Shown here in pieces: positions 38,901-46,898 of a DNA stretch of 64,000 bases. This DNA is from Polyangiaceae bacterium (GTDB lineage: Bacteria; Myxococcota_A; Polyangia; Polyangiales; Polyangiaceae): positions 2,604,001-2,668,000 of the forward strand of contig JABTUA010000001.1 in assembly GCA_015075635.1 (NCBI GenBank), given 5' to 3'. Position 1 is the first letter of the stretch. Each line of letters starts with the position of its first letter. Both the position numbers and the translations under genes were made by a program. The notes beneath the pieces were generated by a model that did not search any database, was not told the DNA's origin, and saw only the letters and a list, made by a program, of their open reading frames with translations.

Positions 38901-39579
38901 CATGGGCCCGGTGAACCTGGACGCGGGTCGGGAGTGGGAGGACGCCGAGAAGCGCTTCCACGATCTGTCCACCCAGAAGATCGACATCGAGAAGGCCCTG
39001 GACGACCTCGACCGCGCCATCAAGCACATGAACCGCGAGTCGCGGCGGCGCTTCAAGGAGACCTTCGAAGCCGTCAACGAGCTGTTCAAGAAGACCTTCG
39101 TCCGCATGTTCCGCGGCGGCCGCGCCGAGCTCGCGCTCACCAACCCCGACGACATGCTGGAGACCGGCGTCGAGATCATCGCCCAGCCGCCCGGCAAGAA
39201 GCTCGGCAACATCGAGCTGATGAGCGGCGGCGAGAAGGCGCTCACCGCGGTGTCGCTGATCTTCTCGATCTTCCAGTACCGGCCCTCGCCGTTCTGCGTG
39301 CTCGACGAGGTCGACGCCCCGCTCGACGAGGCCAACGTGGCCCGCTACAACGAGGCCATCCGCTCGATGACCGCGAACTCGCAGTTCATCCTGATCACCC
39401 ACGTGCGCAAGACCATGCAGAGCGTGGACGTGCTCTACGGCGTGACCATGGGCGAGCCCGGCGTCTCGCGCATCGTCAGCGTCAAGGTCAACGATCAGGC
39501 CCAGGCGCGCAGCGAGCACCGCGGCGCGCTCTCGAGCATGCCGCCGGCGGCTGCGGACGAGTCGGTTCAGGTCGCGTGA
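35938..39579 (+). CDS. smc: Chromosome segregation ATPase SMC
   Basis: 1213 residues, usual SMC length. The head begins GPNGCGKSN (Walker A), with the signature LMSGGEKALTAVSLIFSIF and Walker B FCVLDEVDAPLDEAN near the C-terminus. Between them are two long coiled coils with Ala/Glu/Arg heptads and a central hinge (about residues 500-670, GVGAGARALVNG...). It forms dimers that, with ScpA and ScpB, organise and separate chromosomes. The start is preceded by AAGGA. ScpA/B genes are not in the window. A 287-base upstream gap holds no gene. Confidence 0.96.
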   Translation: MHIKRLEIAGFKSFVDRTVIHFDHDVIGVVGPNGCGKSNIVDAIRWCMGEQSAKHLRGRAMEDVIFNGSESRGPHGLSEVTLTFDNTDPTYAESLPPEYQAYPEIAITRRLYRDGTSEYLINKTQVRLRDITELFLGTGVGTKAYSIVEQGRIGQIVSSRPEDRRLYIEEAAGITKYKQRRKQAERKMELTRQNLLRITDIVTEIDRTRASLKRQVAKAERYIQYRAELEDLVLHDASHKLLEYIVTEQVEKTSHGEAQSGLERARENLSAAESELDLARQESLSIEQRADKASTSAFEADNEVTALGAEIERAKDRMSHLVERQNSAENEQDQIASRLAELNAERETLADRLADLARDETERAADAQKEDDALGELRGEESRANEVLQGVRDELGRTSSQAAAEEARLDAHAHHIAELEARRDRLGVERDGIADELAELSAKKHALERSVAELAEGKRLTVAEREGLEAELVELRARQLESERKVDVAKNELGLKKNRLKALDELHRRLEGVGAGARALVNGSHAGVLGLVADRIEAPEELTAAFAGLLGERLQYVVVEDLPRGLDLLGELARAARGRANIVAARPPYVAGSAKSGALSEPGVIGYLADRLVYAPADEALVRALVGDTLLVETPAQALSLAERFVGTTAVSLDGTVARPDGVVSGGSGDDAAAAMVEQKRELRVLAEDVERLSEHYSRVHEEHTALRARLSEVGTSLDRARQEAHAGELAHVTAEKDLARTSDEITRATARQATIGAESAELETKLADARRAQGECQTQLEAARASLEHLRHELGKAEAQAASWNERVTAQAALVTERKVRLAQVREQVEAAKSSQERVLAAIADLETRAQRLGDELVEVARSLGETAAQIVIARETRLGATEAARLAHEELSAARALLEQVRFALGTREAELKTLRDEAQLLDESLRRAEMALQRIELERQHLLANVRDRFRGLDLLRVVGDYHARPIPDDEQRRRIEELTQLIDRMGPVNLDAGREWEDAEKRFHDLSTQKIDIEKALDDLDRAIKHMNRESRRRFKETFEAVNELFKKTFVRMFRGGRAELALTNPDDMLETGVEIIAQPPGKKLGNIELMSGGEKALTAVSLIFSIFQYRPSPFCVLDEVDAPLDEANVARYNEAIRSMTANSQFILITHVRKTMQSVDVLYGVTMGEPGVSRIVSVKVNDQAQARSEHRGALSSMPPAAADESVQVA

Positions 39580-39663
39580 GGCAGGCCTGACTGACGCCAT
39601 CTTGACGCCCGTCAAGGCGAGGCCGGCGGGAGCAGCCGCAGCATGGGCGCTCGGAGGTGCCGC

Positions 39664-41886
39664 ATGCGCGTGCTCTTGGTCGGGGCGGATTTCGAAGAGA
39701 ACCTGGGCGTCGGGATGATCGCTGCGGCCGCCGAGGCCGCCGGACATCAGGTCGCCATCGCGCCCTTCAACGCGCCCAAGGCCGCCGCGGGCATCGCCGC
39801 GCGGGTCGCGCGGGAGGCGCCGGATCTGGTCGGCCTCAGCATCCAGTTCCAGCACCGCTCCCACGAGTTCGTCTCGCTCGCGCGGGCGCTGCGCCGCGCG
39901 GGCTACCGCGGACACGTCACCGCCGGCGGTCAGTTCCCGACCCTCGCCGCCCGCGAAGTGCTCGGCAGCGGCCACGGCATCGACAGCGTCGTGCTCCACG
40001 ACGGCGAGGAGACGATCGTCGAGCTGCTCGCCGCGCTGGAGCAGGGCACGCCCCTCGACCAAGTGCGCGGGCTCGCGTTCGTGGACCAGGGCGGCGTTCG
40101 GCTCACTCCCGGCCGCGGCCTCGGGACGAGCCTCGACAGCCTCCCCTTCCCCAAGCGCTACCGGCGCCCGTCGCGCCACGCCGGTGTGCCGTTCGTGCCC
40201 ATCATGGGCTCGCGTGGCTGCTGGGGCAGCTGCAGCTACTGCTCCATCACCTCCTTCTACCGCGACGCCAAGCAGGCCGGCGGCGGGCCGCTCCTGCGCC
40301 TGCGCAGCCCCGACAACGTCGCCGAGGAGATGGCCGGGCTCAGCCACGCCATCGGCGAGGCGTGCGTGTTCTGCTTCCACGACGACAACTTCCTCCTACC
40401 GAAGCCCGCCGACTCGCTCGAGCGCGTGCAGGCCATCGTCGGCGCGCTCCGCCAGCGCGGCGTCGAGAAAGCCGGTTTCATCGGCAAATGCCGGCCGGAG
40501 ACCCTCAGCGCCGAGCTCGCCCGCCAGCTCGCCGAGCTCGGGGTGGTGCGCCTCTACGTCGGCGTCGAGAACGTGGCGGAGGCGGGCTCGGATCACCTGA
40601 ACCGCGGGGTGCAGCACCGCGCGGTGTCCGAGGCCCTCGACGCCTGCGAAGCCACAGGAATCTTCGCCTGCTACAACCTCCTGGTCTTCGAGCCGAAGGC
40701 GACCCTCGCTCACTTGCGCGAGAACGTCGCGTTCATGCGAGCGCACCCCGCTCAGCCGGTCAACTTCTGCCGCGCCGAGCCCTGCTACGGGACGCCGCTC
40801 CAGCTCGGCCTGGCAGCTTCCGACAAGCTCGGCGGCAGCTACTTGGGCTGGAACTACCGCATCGAAGATCCGAGGACGGAGCTCTGCTTCCGCATCGCGG
40901 CGGCGGCGTTCCGCGAGCGGAACTTCCGCTGCGACGGCGTGGCCAATCGCTACATGGGCGTGGGCTACGCGGCCAAGCTGGTCGAGCACTTCCACCCCGA
41001 CGTGGGGGGAGCCCATCGTCGCCTGCGGGAGCGGGCCGAGTCGCTGACGCGCGCCATCACCCTCGACACGGCACGGCTGCTCGAGAAGGCGGTGGACTGG
41101 GCGGAGCACGCCGACCTCGCCGACTTCGACGCCATCGAGCGAAAGACCGCGCTGCTCGCGCTGGAGGTCGCCGCGTCAGATCGGAGCTGGCAGCACGAGC
41201 TCGATGGCTTCTACGCGGAGGTCGACGCGGTCGTCCGGCGGCTCGGGGAGCCGCGCGCGATCCGGCCGAAGCGACCGCCGGCGCGGAGCGGCAGAAACCT
41301 GGCGCTCGGCGCGTCGCTCGCCCTGTGGGCGCTCGGCTGCGGCGGCGACACCGATGACGGCCCACTCCCACAAGACGGCGGCAAGGAAGACCAGATGGTC
41401 GCCGATCCCCCGCCCCCGGACGCCGGCTACGACGCCGGCGAAGACCAGATGGTCGCCGATCCGCTCCCCGAGGACGCCGGTGTGGACGCCGACGCCGACG
41501 ACGGCGACTCCATGGTCGCCGATCCGCCGCCCGCAGACGCCGGCATGTCGCTGAACGAGCCGCCCGCGGGGCGCCGCGAGCTCATCGACCAGTGGACCGA
41601 CACCGGCGTGCGGCGCGCGGTGCGCAGCAAGGATCTGCCGCTCTACGATCCGCCGGAGCTCGAGCTCGCCGCGACCCGCGTCGGCGGCGCGATCGAGGTC
41701 CGGGTCTTGGGCCTGCCCGAGGGCGCGAGCACGCGCTTCGAGGCGCTCGGCACGGTCGCTGCGGACGGCGCGCTCGCCCGCTGGACTCCCGCCGACGAGG
41801 CCTTCGACGCGCTCAGCGTCGCGGTGCGAACCCGCGGCGGCATCAGCGTGGCAAGCGTCAGGGCGAAGGCCGTGCGCACGGGCTAG
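39664..41886 (+). CDS. B12-binding radical SAM protein fused to a lipoprotein-like tail with MVADP repeats
   Basis: 740 residues. An N-terminal cobalamin-binding Rossmann domain (about 1-150, without the DxHxxG base-off motif) is followed by a radical SAM domain with CWGSCSYC (Cys186, 190, 193). From about residue 540, a hydrophobic stretch ends in LWALGC (Cys559, lipobox-like), then MVADP recurs at 578, 596 and 617 amid PPPPDAG-like sequence, with a final beta-rich domain. No start codon precedes the lipobox in this frame, so it is a true fusion. GGAGG sits 6 bases before ATG 39664. Known relatives methylate or rearrange substrates with SAM; the tail may be the substrate (inference). It converges on dnaE2, and their stop codons overlap (CTAG). 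Confidence 0.75.
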   Translation: MRVLLVGADFEENLGVGMIAAAAEAAGHQVAIAPFNAPKAAAGIAARVAREAPDLVGLSIQFQHRSHEFVSLARALRRAGYRGHVTAGGQFPTLAAREVLGSGHGIDSVVLHDGEETIVELLAALEQGTPLDQVRGLAFVDQGGVRLTPGRGLGTSLDSLPFPKRYRRPSRHAGVPFVPIMGSRGCWGSCSYCSITSFYRDAKQAGGGPLLRLRSPDNVAEEMAGLSHAIGEACVFCFHDDNFLLPKPADSLERVQAIVGALRQRGVEKAGFIGKCRPETLSAELARQLAELGVVRLYVGVENVAEAGSDHLNRGVQHRAVSEALDACEATGIFACYNLLVFEPKATLAHLRENVAFMRAHPAQPVNFCRAEPCYGTPLQLGLAASDKLGGSYLGWNYRIEDPRTELCFRIAAAAFRERNFRCDGVANRYMGVGYAAKLVEHFHPDVGGAHRRLRERAESLTRAITLDTARLLEKAVDWAEHADLADFDAIERKTALLALEVAASDRSWQHELDGFYAEVDAVVRRLGEPRAIRPKRPPARSGRNLALGASLALWALGCGGDTDDGPLPQDGGKEDQMVADPPPPDAGYDAGEDQMVADPLPEDAGVDADADDGDSMVADPPPADAGMSLNEPPAGRRELIDQWTDTGVRRAVRSKDLPLYDPPELELAATRVGGAIEVRVLGLPEGASTRFEALGTVAADGALARWTPADEAFDALSVAVRTRGGISVASVRAKAVRTG

Positions 41887-45145: not shown

Positions 45146-45796
45146 TCACTTCGCGAGGATGGCGGCCATCTTCGCCTTGGCGTCGGCCTCGCTGGTCGCC
45201 TCCACGAAGCTGTGGGCGTAGCCGTCGACGCTCGGCAGACCGGTGATGCACCAGCCCGGGTTGTCCGGCTGAGGCACCAGCGTGCCGAAGGGATCGATGC
45301 CCGCGACGAAGTACTCGCCGACCTTGTCGGGGCCTTCCGGTGGCGCGTAGTAGGCGTGACCGCCGTGGTTCACCTGCGTCACACCGCTGCCCTTGCCGAT
45401 GGCGATCACGTCGAAGGTGACGTGCGCGCCGCCGGCACCCGAGCACTCCTCGTCGATGCGCGCCACCTGGATCACCGCGACGACGCACGAAGCCGCGATG
45501 ACGGCCTCGAGCCCCGCGTCGAGTGTCCCGCCCTCTTGGCAGCTGCCCGCATCCACGCCGCCGCCGCTCCCGCCGCCCGAGCTCGAGCCCGCAGCACCCG
45601 AGGTGCCTCCGCTCGACGTGCCGCCTCCGCTCGTGCCGCCTCCGCTCGACGTGCCGCCTCCGCTCGTGCTGCCTCCGCTCGAGGTGCTGCCTCCGCTCGA
45701 GGTGCTGCCTCCGCTCGACGGCGTGCCGTCTCCCGATGTTTCTCCGGAGCAAGCTGCGGCGAGCGCGATGCACGTCGCGACGATGAGCGGGCGCAT
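45146..45796 (-). CDS. Lipoprotein with GGSTSS repeats
   Basis: 216 residues. The leader ends in ALAAACS (lipobox). About residues 20-75 are low-complexity GGSTSS/GGGTS repeats, then a small globular domain with four Cys and a GEYFVAGIDPFG/GWCITG pattern. Function is unknown. It is divergent from the protein at 45825, with only 28 bases between starts, so the promoters must overlap the coding starts. Confidence 0.75.
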   Translation of the reverse strand: MRPLIVATCIALAAACSGETSGDGTPSSGGSTSSGGSTSSGGSTSGGGTSSGGGTSGGGTSSGGTSGAAGSSSGGGSGGGVDAGSCQEGGTLDAGLEAVIAASCVVAVIQVARIDEECSGAGGAHVTFDVIAIGKGSGVTQVNHGGHAYYAPPEGPDKVGEYFVAGIDPFGTLVPQPDNPGWCITGLPSVDGYAHSFVEATSEADAKAKMAAILAK

Positions 45797-45824
45797 GCCC
45801 GCAGTGTACGTGGTATCGGGGGGC

Positions 45825-46898
45825 ATGCGCCGCCTCGGCCCGCTTCCCCTCTGCCTGGCCGCCCTGTCGGCGTGCGTCGGCACCGTGCCCCGCCCCGAGC
45901 CCCTCGGCGCGGAGCCACTCGCGCCGGAGGACGCCCGGCCCGGTCCCGCGCGCCCACGCGCCGTCCGCGAGCGCCCCACCCGGGCTTGCTTGCCGAAGGC
46001 GCTGGCGGAGCACGGGCGCGTGACCCAAGCGAAGCTCGGCGCGCCGGATCGGCTCACGTTCTGCATGCGCGAGGAGGGTGTGAGCGACGATACCCCCGAC
46101 GCCTGCTTCGACTGGAACCTCGAGAGTCAGGCCTTTCGAGTCGCCAACCCGCTCGAGCCGCCGCCGCCCCCGGAGGAGCCAGCCGCGGCAGCGAGCCCGC
46201 GCATCGACAAGGACGCAGTCAGTCTGTGCAGCAGCGCGGGCAAGTGCACGCCGTTCGTCTCCGCGCGGGCGCTACCCAGGACCGAGCGCTATCGCCGCGA
46301 GGCCGACGACCGCCTGTTCGCTCGCGTGTCCGAGGACGGCAAGCTCGTCGCGCTGGTACGCCAGCCGAGCGCGAGCGCTGACGACTCCACTGGCACCGTG
46401 GAGGTCTGGAGCGCCGAGCAGAGGAAGCTGCTGAAGCGCTTCAAGGTGACCTCTCCGGCGCACGGCGACCAGATCGCCGCGCTGCGCTTCCTCGGCCGGG
46501 CCCTGCTCGTGGAGCAGTGCGACGCCGGTCCAGCCTGCACCGGGCGGCTCTTCGACCCCGCCACGGGGAAACAGCGCCTGGAAATTCCGGTCAATTTCTA
46601 CGGCGCCGAGCTCTACCCGCTCGCCGCAGGGCGCTGGCTGTTCGTGGACGGATGGCTGCGCGGTGCCGCCGTCGTCGATGTGGACTCGGCGCGCTTGGTG
46701 GCCGAGCTGAAGAGCGGGGTCAGCGGTCCGGCCGAAGACGCCGGGCGAGTCGTGCGCCTGCCGAACGGGGAGCTCCTGCTGCTTTTGTCCGGCGCGGGTG
46801 CCGGCGCGGAGCTCGCCGTCGGCGGCACGCTGATCCGCCTCGACCCGAGCACGGGTGCGAGCGCCAAGCGCTTCGCCCCGCCCGGCTGCGCCGAGTGA
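45825..46898 (+). CDS. Lipoprotein with propeller-like repeats
   Basis: 357 residues, leader ending in LSACVG (lipobox). The body (about 170-350) has WD/PQQ-like strand repeats such as VEVWSAEQRKLLKRFKV, TGRLFDPATGKQRLEIPV and TLIRLDPSTGASAKRF, suggesting a beta-propeller. No binding or catalytic motif was identified. It is divergent from the lipoprotein at 45146 and 51 bases upstream of the sulfatase-like gene. Confidence 0.7.
   Translation: MRRLGPLPLCLAALSACVGTVPRPEPLGAEPLAPEDARPGPARPRAVRERPTRACLPKALAEHGRVTQAKLGAPDRLTFCMREEGVSDDTPDACFDWNLESQAFRVANPLEPPPPPEEPAAAASPRIDKDAVSLCSSAGKCTPFVSARALPRTERYRREADDRLFARVSEDGKLVALVRQPSASADDSTGTVEVWSAEQRKLLKRFKVTSPAHGDQIAALRFLGRALLVEQCDAGPACTGRLFDPATGKQRLEIPVNFYGAELYPLAAGRWLFVDGWLRGAAVVDVDSARLVAELKSGVSGPAEDAGRVVRLPNGELLLLLSGAGAGAELAVGGTLIRLDPSTGASAKRFAPPGCAE

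Follow-up and report, generated by a model that had tools for sequence, protein, structure and literature searches.

A B12-binding radical SAM enzyme fused to a repeat-bearing lipoprotein tail in a Polyangiaceae genome: a possible enzyme-substrate fusion with split relatives

Among borosins, types I-III fuse an N-methyltransferase to its own core (OphMA), and type IV is split (SonM/SonA) (PMC8429565, PMC11285071). The gene we describe here lies in a 64,000-nucleotide stretch of a Polyangiaceae genome (the window, whose first letter is position 1) and is like the borosins in architecture, in that a modifying enzyme and a substrate-like part form one chain while relatives are split (67 fused, 28 split of 100), albeit with the substrate role being inferred. 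Unlike borosin enzymes, which are SAM-dependent alpha-N-methyltransferases, ours is a B12-binding radical SAM enzyme: no SAM-dependent alpha-N-methyltransferase domain was found in the window protein, only B12-binding and Radical_SAM. Again unlike borosins, the substrate-like part is a lipoprotein, putatively exported, whose place is taken by a soluble repeat protein in one clade. With the cobalamin-dependent radical SAM C-methyltransferases that act on RiPPs and proteins (TsrM, PoyB/PoyC, ApyD and MgmA) the protein shares a B12-binding domain plus radical SAM core, yet these enzymes have separate substrates whereas here enzyme and lipoprotein tail share one chain. Best-scoring curated profiles for the enzyme part are those of BchE and of HpnR, a hopanoid C-3 methylase; these two enzymes act on lipids or porphyrins, and neither is known to have a repeat lipoprotein partner. 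Another B12-type protein, the CUAEP/CCAEP-tail radical SAM (seleno)protein NF040546 (36.5 bits against a cutoff of 500), is named for a short C-terminal tail motif; judging by this name its tail is a single short motif, while the window protein carries an exported-type repeat domain. A literature search, confined to open-access papers and so without subscription ones, turned up nothing published that describes the family.

The features of the gene are as follows.

39664..41886, + strand: whole gene, B12-binding radical SAM enzyme plus fused repeat lipoprotein tail, 740 aa (Pfam domains; homologues align from 39664)
39664..40047, + strand: N-terminal B12-binding domain (PF02310 over residues 12-121, 69 bits against a cutoff of 32.1)
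40210..40722, + strand: radical SAM core with CxxxCxxC at residues 186-193 (PF04055 over residues 183-353, 51 bits against a cutoff of 29.5)
41011..41244, + strand: pair of long helices at the C-terminal end of the enzyme part, residues 450-527 (AlphaFold prediction, pLDDT mostly >95)
41281..41340, + strand: internal signal sequence, residues 540-559, made of a basic stretch, a hydrophobic segment and the lipobox LWALGC with Cys559 (position kept in 64 fused homologues)
41395..41430, + strand: repeat 1, MVADPPPPDAGY, residues 578-589 (DNA pattern search and motif count)
41449..41481, + strand: repeat 2, MVADPLPEDAG, residues 596-606 (DNA pattern search and motif count)
41512..41544, + strand: repeat 3, MVADPPPADAG, residues 617-627 (DNA pattern search and motif count)
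41659..41865, + strand: predicted C-terminal seven-stranded beta-domain, about residues 666-734 (AlphaFold; kept in fused tails of class I; C-termini of stand-alone partner lipoproteins look similar)

The longest open reading frame begins at 39643, 7 codons 5' of 39664; homologue alignments begin at 39664. The gene is flanked by what we take to be, judging by their sequences, smc (ending at 39579) and, on the opposite strand from 41883, an error-prone DNA polymerase gene, so tailoring or transport genes are not its direct neighbours. A sequence-only reading had joined enzyme and tail in a single frame at 39664-41886, with CxxxCxxC at residues 186-193, LWALGC with Cys559 and MVADP at residues 578, 596 and 617; frame and coordinates proved right and the motifs held exactly. 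Its claim that the tail is not a separate gene, since no start codon lies just before the lipobox, held too in a codon scan, which covered codons -45 to -10 relative to Cys559 of the window gene and turned up no ATG, GTG or TTG in frame. The C-terminal beta-domain had been missed.

With a B12-binding domain and a radical SAM core containing CxxxCxxC, whose residues C186, C190 and C193 are invariant (62 homologues), the enzyme part satisfies the domain criteria for class B (B12-dependent) radical SAM proteins. We assign it to this class by its domains, while cobalamin binding and methyl transfer activity are inferred. None of the curated NCBIfam cutoffs was reached. The best sub-threshold matches were HpnR, ApyD and BchE, with HpnR (TIGR04367) at 86.1 bits remaining far under its cutoff of 650, ApyD (NF050148) at 81.8 bits missing that of 750 and BchE staying far under 481 bits; rSAM_ocin_1 (TIGR03975), at 51 bits against 281.85, was not met either. 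Fold matches in the PDB were OxsB, TsrM, MgmA, AprD4, CysS and TokK at 14-18% identity, and these solved relatives include the cobalamin-dependent methylases TsrM, TokK, CysS and MgmA, and also OxsB. PADLOC gave no match and a plasmid search returned distant radical SAM proteins only. Membership in a known family was rejected, given no NCBIfam cutoff reached by the enzyme, no Pfam/NCBIfam family for tail or partners and no PADLOC match.

Residues 540-559 satisfy the features of a bacterial lipoprotein signal (basic n-region, hydrophobic h-region, lipobox Cys), but do so internally; in split partners the same features are N-terminal. Genome-wide motif counts, taken from DNA pattern searches, gave three matches for [MV]V[A/V/I/T]DPxP in the 9.47-Mb genome, all of them in this tail, and 0 for the reversed control. 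A stricter motif occurred 61 times in 43 homologous tails as opposed to 0.2 times in shuffled tails, and the repeat consensus D-x-M-V-V/A-D-P-x-P-P-D-A-G was counted in 195 copies among 33 same-clade homologues, each protein having 1-10. The fusion, its internal lipobox and its repeats are shown by these data. Between close orthologues the repeat tail has a dN/dS of 0.06-0.34, i.e. it is under purifying selection, and so the tail is neither a frameshift product nor debris. Pfam found nothing in the last 200 residues of the window protein, and no Pfam/NCBIfam family was found for tail or partners. In the AlphaFold model (mean pLDDT 85, pTM 0.85), enzyme part and beta-domain are predicted confidently and the repeat region 558-647 is disordered.

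Members of the family are not restricted to this locus. The same genome holds two more with DPLPPP repeats (L002) or EMAPRPP repeats (L003, the only match to an EMAPRPP DNA pattern in the genome) and a distant one (L004), which has an internal lipobox too. Within the bacterial family, 23 of 98 genomes carry a member at E <1e-60. A scan of named genomes returned 80 loci, mostly from Myxococcota, with others from Gemmatimonadota, Acidobacteriota, Verrucomicrobiota, Planctomycetota, Armatimonadota, Thermodesulfobacteriota and methanotrophic archaea. Removal of near-identical copies left 104 loci, four of which remained unclassified. Among the 100 classified relatives, 67 are fused, 28 are tail-less with a motif gene as neighbour and five lack an identified partner, showing that fused and split forms recur. 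In nearly all fused members (64 of 67) a test detected a hydrophobic segment whose closing Cys falls at residues 529-571; of the other three, L061 has by eye such a segment with Cys, and in L120 and L132 the signal segment lacks Cys and ends in AVA or TAA. In many fused members (e.g. L002, L091-L104) the tail carries motif repeats without any beta-domain.

Fourteen tail-less enzymes adjoin a gene whose predicted product is exported, nearly always as a lipoprotein, and contains a DPxP-type motif. Six other tail-less enzymes are followed downstream by a soluble protein with repeated EPAH and no evident signal peptide. These partners are listed by locus.

L038, L039 (two copies), L128: GYGVVDPMPPP partner
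L042: VVCDPMPAP partner, motif present twice
L102, L103, L114, L116: AVDPPPPPLQC partner
L092, L101, L105, L123: VVDCVPxPxC partner
L121: MVVDPPPPPPP partner with a type-I-like signal
L047: ACDPAPEP partner, the weakest case
L111:6837-7625, L118:3680-4453, L125:6866-7555, L130:6758-7546, L131:6817-7542, L134:6768-7952: EPAH-repeat proteins

In another clade, a lipoprotein with a C-x-x-C-x4-E-M-A-P-S-P-I motif is encoded immediately upstream in 8 of 8 members. Its profile found eight places in the 98 genomes (E <1e-10), every one of them directly beside a family enzyme by coordinates, and a GYGVVDPM DNA pattern matched once in 98 genomes, again beside the enzyme; the tight linkage is shown by these searches. 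No partner was found near L040, L044, L108, L113 and L119. Pfam/NCBIfam families above cutoff were absent from the two EPAH proteins tested. As a side observation, EPAH proteins share an N-terminal part (IGFVVTT..P), their hosts being Desulfuromonadales, Methanoperedens and others.

An alignment of five stand-alone partners, divergent at 23-40% identity to the first, has invariant columns only at the start Met, three residues of the N-region and V-V-D-P-x-P-x-P. Homology links the EMAPSPI lipoproteins to the VVDCVP ones (180 columns, hhalign probability 96, E 4e-9); in their alignment EMAPSPI faces DDPLPKPM. With the C-termini of both these families the fused beta-domain aligns in register (E 3e-4 and 1.6e-3), albeit at low hhalign probabilities (39 and 16). 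AlphaFold predicts seven strands in the window beta-domain, the same number as at the C-terminal end of the partner of L092. Beyond its own clade, the beta-domain HMM matches only the partner lipoproteins of L092 and L123, and does so weakly (E about 0.02); comparing profiles of this fused domain and of Gemmatimonadota-type partners yielded no convincing match.

In a tree built from 103 enzyme cores, 5 changes suffice to explain the fused state (4 of them forced by starred branches), as opposed to a shuffled mean of about 30. Fusion or fission arose at least about four times, and this repetition is Rosetta-stone evidence that enzyme and partner act together; we regard the pairing as well supported. 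The window clade, with 35 fused rows, has as its sister a clade that includes split VVDCVP members. Similarly, motif type requires 6 changes on the enzyme tree compared to a shuffled mean of 27.5. That motif type tracks enzyme clade is shown and is the pattern expected of a co-evolving enzyme and target, with shared ancestry explaining part of the clustering.

Taken together, we consider it likely that the motif repeats of a lipoprotein, in this case one fused to the enzyme itself, are modified in cis by the B12-radical SAM enzyme, and that the tail is subsequently exported and lipidated by way of its internal signal; catalysis, chemistry, site, cis action, export order, lipidation and cleavage are all inferred. 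In such a scenario, the enzyme part would fold in the cytoplasm and the disordered tail would offer each [M/V]V[A/V]DPxPxDAG repeat to the active site, either in cis or from one copy of the protein to another, for a radical and probably methylcobalamin-dependent modification to be placed on motif residues. The internal signal would carry the tail across the inner membrane and Lgt would lipidate Cys559; Lsp may cut before this residue, which would release the enzyme and leave the modified lipoprotein with its beta-domain. In relatives this pair comes from two neighbouring genes. The DPxPP, EMAPxP and EPAH motifs have in common an acidic residue and a Pro within the three residues that follow, so the modification may fall on either of these residues or on a neighbour of the Pro. 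Judging by analogy from other class B enzymes, we would first guess C-methylation. B12-radical SAM enzymes also perform other chemistry.

The sequence-only reading had taken the tail for a substrate modified in cis and then exported or anchored. This is supported as a reading, while cis modification and export order remain inference. It had also asked for stand-alone repeat lipoproteins beside B12-radical SAM genes, which we found in several clades, and it would have been refuted by a tail that is absent or frameshifted in homologues or belongs to a separate, non-co-occurring family; this is not so with 67 of 100 relatives fused and most others having a neighbouring partner. Folding of the full protein, which it had suggested, was done with AlphaFold and did not place the repeats in the active site.

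Several points speak against our preferred explanation. The modification has never been observed, and in the model the repeat region (558-647) is disordered and is not positioned in the active site. Lipid and pigment enzymes (HpnR, BchE) are among the nearest curated profiles, albeit far under cutoffs, and 5 of 100 relatives are without a nearby partner. hhalign probabilities for the beta-domain against partners are low (39, 16), though E-values and register agree. Finally, it is unusual for a lipobox to lie internally, behind a folded domain of 540 residues, and proof that Lgt and Lsp process it is lacking.

The tail could alternatively be no more than a membrane anchor or scaffold that tethers the enzyme to the membrane or a partner complex, with the enzyme acting on a lipid or small molecule (like HpnR, HpnJ or BchE). 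In favour of this are HpnR, ApyD and BchE as top sub-threshold profiles and a hydrophobic segment that would tether the enzyme. In 28 relatives, however, the partner is a separate gene, and with the lipoprotein or repeat protein encoded separately, covalent anchoring of the enzyme is impossible there. Moreover, EPAH partners have no evident signal peptide, the fused L120 and L132 have an internal signal without a lipobox Cys, and the motif is the best-conserved partner segment, its type following enzyme clade; so to our minds a mere anchor seems unlikely. Unlikely too, in our view, is a scenario where the modified site lies elsewhere (in the beta-domain or around the lipobox) and the repeats serve as a recognition or display element. 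Consistent with it, the beta-domain is conserved in the window clade and in several stand-alone partners, and, with about 90 residues disordered, the predicted pTM of 0.85 exceeds our expectation for a beta-domain that floats freely; this is a hint that it docks on the enzyme, and a lead only as there is no error matrix. Against it, motif copies number up to 10 and many fused tails carry repeats without a beta-domain, which leaves the motif as the only element that tails share.

That the fusion is an assembly, frameshift or gene-calling artefact, or that the tail is made from an internal start, can practically be ruled out. An in-frame ATG does occur 10-45 codons before the Cys in 38 of 64 fused homologues (about 60%), yet start positions are not conserved among them and the window gene has no ATG, GTG or TTG there, and a separate lipoprotein from an internal start was rejected on these grounds. 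An assembly or frameshift artefact was rejected as well, since 67 distinct homologues taken from many assemblies show the fusion, as do further genes of this genome, and since purifying selection acts on the tail. A docking of repeats in the active site, also considered, is not predicted by AlphaFold, which leaves this region disordered.

Returning to the reading that the enzyme modifies the repeats, a bolder version sees a widespread undescribed modification system, in which B12-radical SAM enzymes would target VVDPxPP, EMAPxP, MCEMAPP or EPAHY repeats in exported lipoproteins or soluble repeat proteins, and in which the substrate was repeatedly fused behind an internal signal peptide to yield a self-modifying polypeptide that is then split between cytoplasm and envelope. 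We lean towards this version by a narrow margin. If true, it would be a radical SAM counterpart of borosins whose self-modified part leaves the cytoplasm as a lipoprotein, and it would provide a substrate handle for a large orphan B12-radical SAM family, the motif being written in the same chain. A new modification would also be predicted on envelope lipoproteins of Myxococcota and others, and the question is raised whether Sec, Lgt and Lsp can use an internal lipobox behind a 540-residue folded enzyme.

Some tails and one further locus are worth recording in their own right. Fused tails with HMCEMAPPP or WHMCEMMMEPI repeats occur at L122, L136, L112, L129 and L133; tails of these types come from Myxococcota, Verrucomicrobiota and one record labelled Nealsonbacteria, the latter probably being a binning matter. 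In EMAP-type fused tails (L003; also L030, L054, L115, L120) an extra folded-looking segment resembling the TonB C-terminal type lies between repeats, for which a Pfam match was absent at L115. The tails of L083, L084, L087 and L031 (proteins of about 870-930 residues) are Gly/Thr/Ser-rich (TGGxxxxTGG) with embedded VVDMAPxTGG-like repeats. At 45146-46066 of the window, on the minus strand, another lipoprotein-like open reading frame has low-complexity STSSGG/GGGTSG repeats directly after its lipobox.
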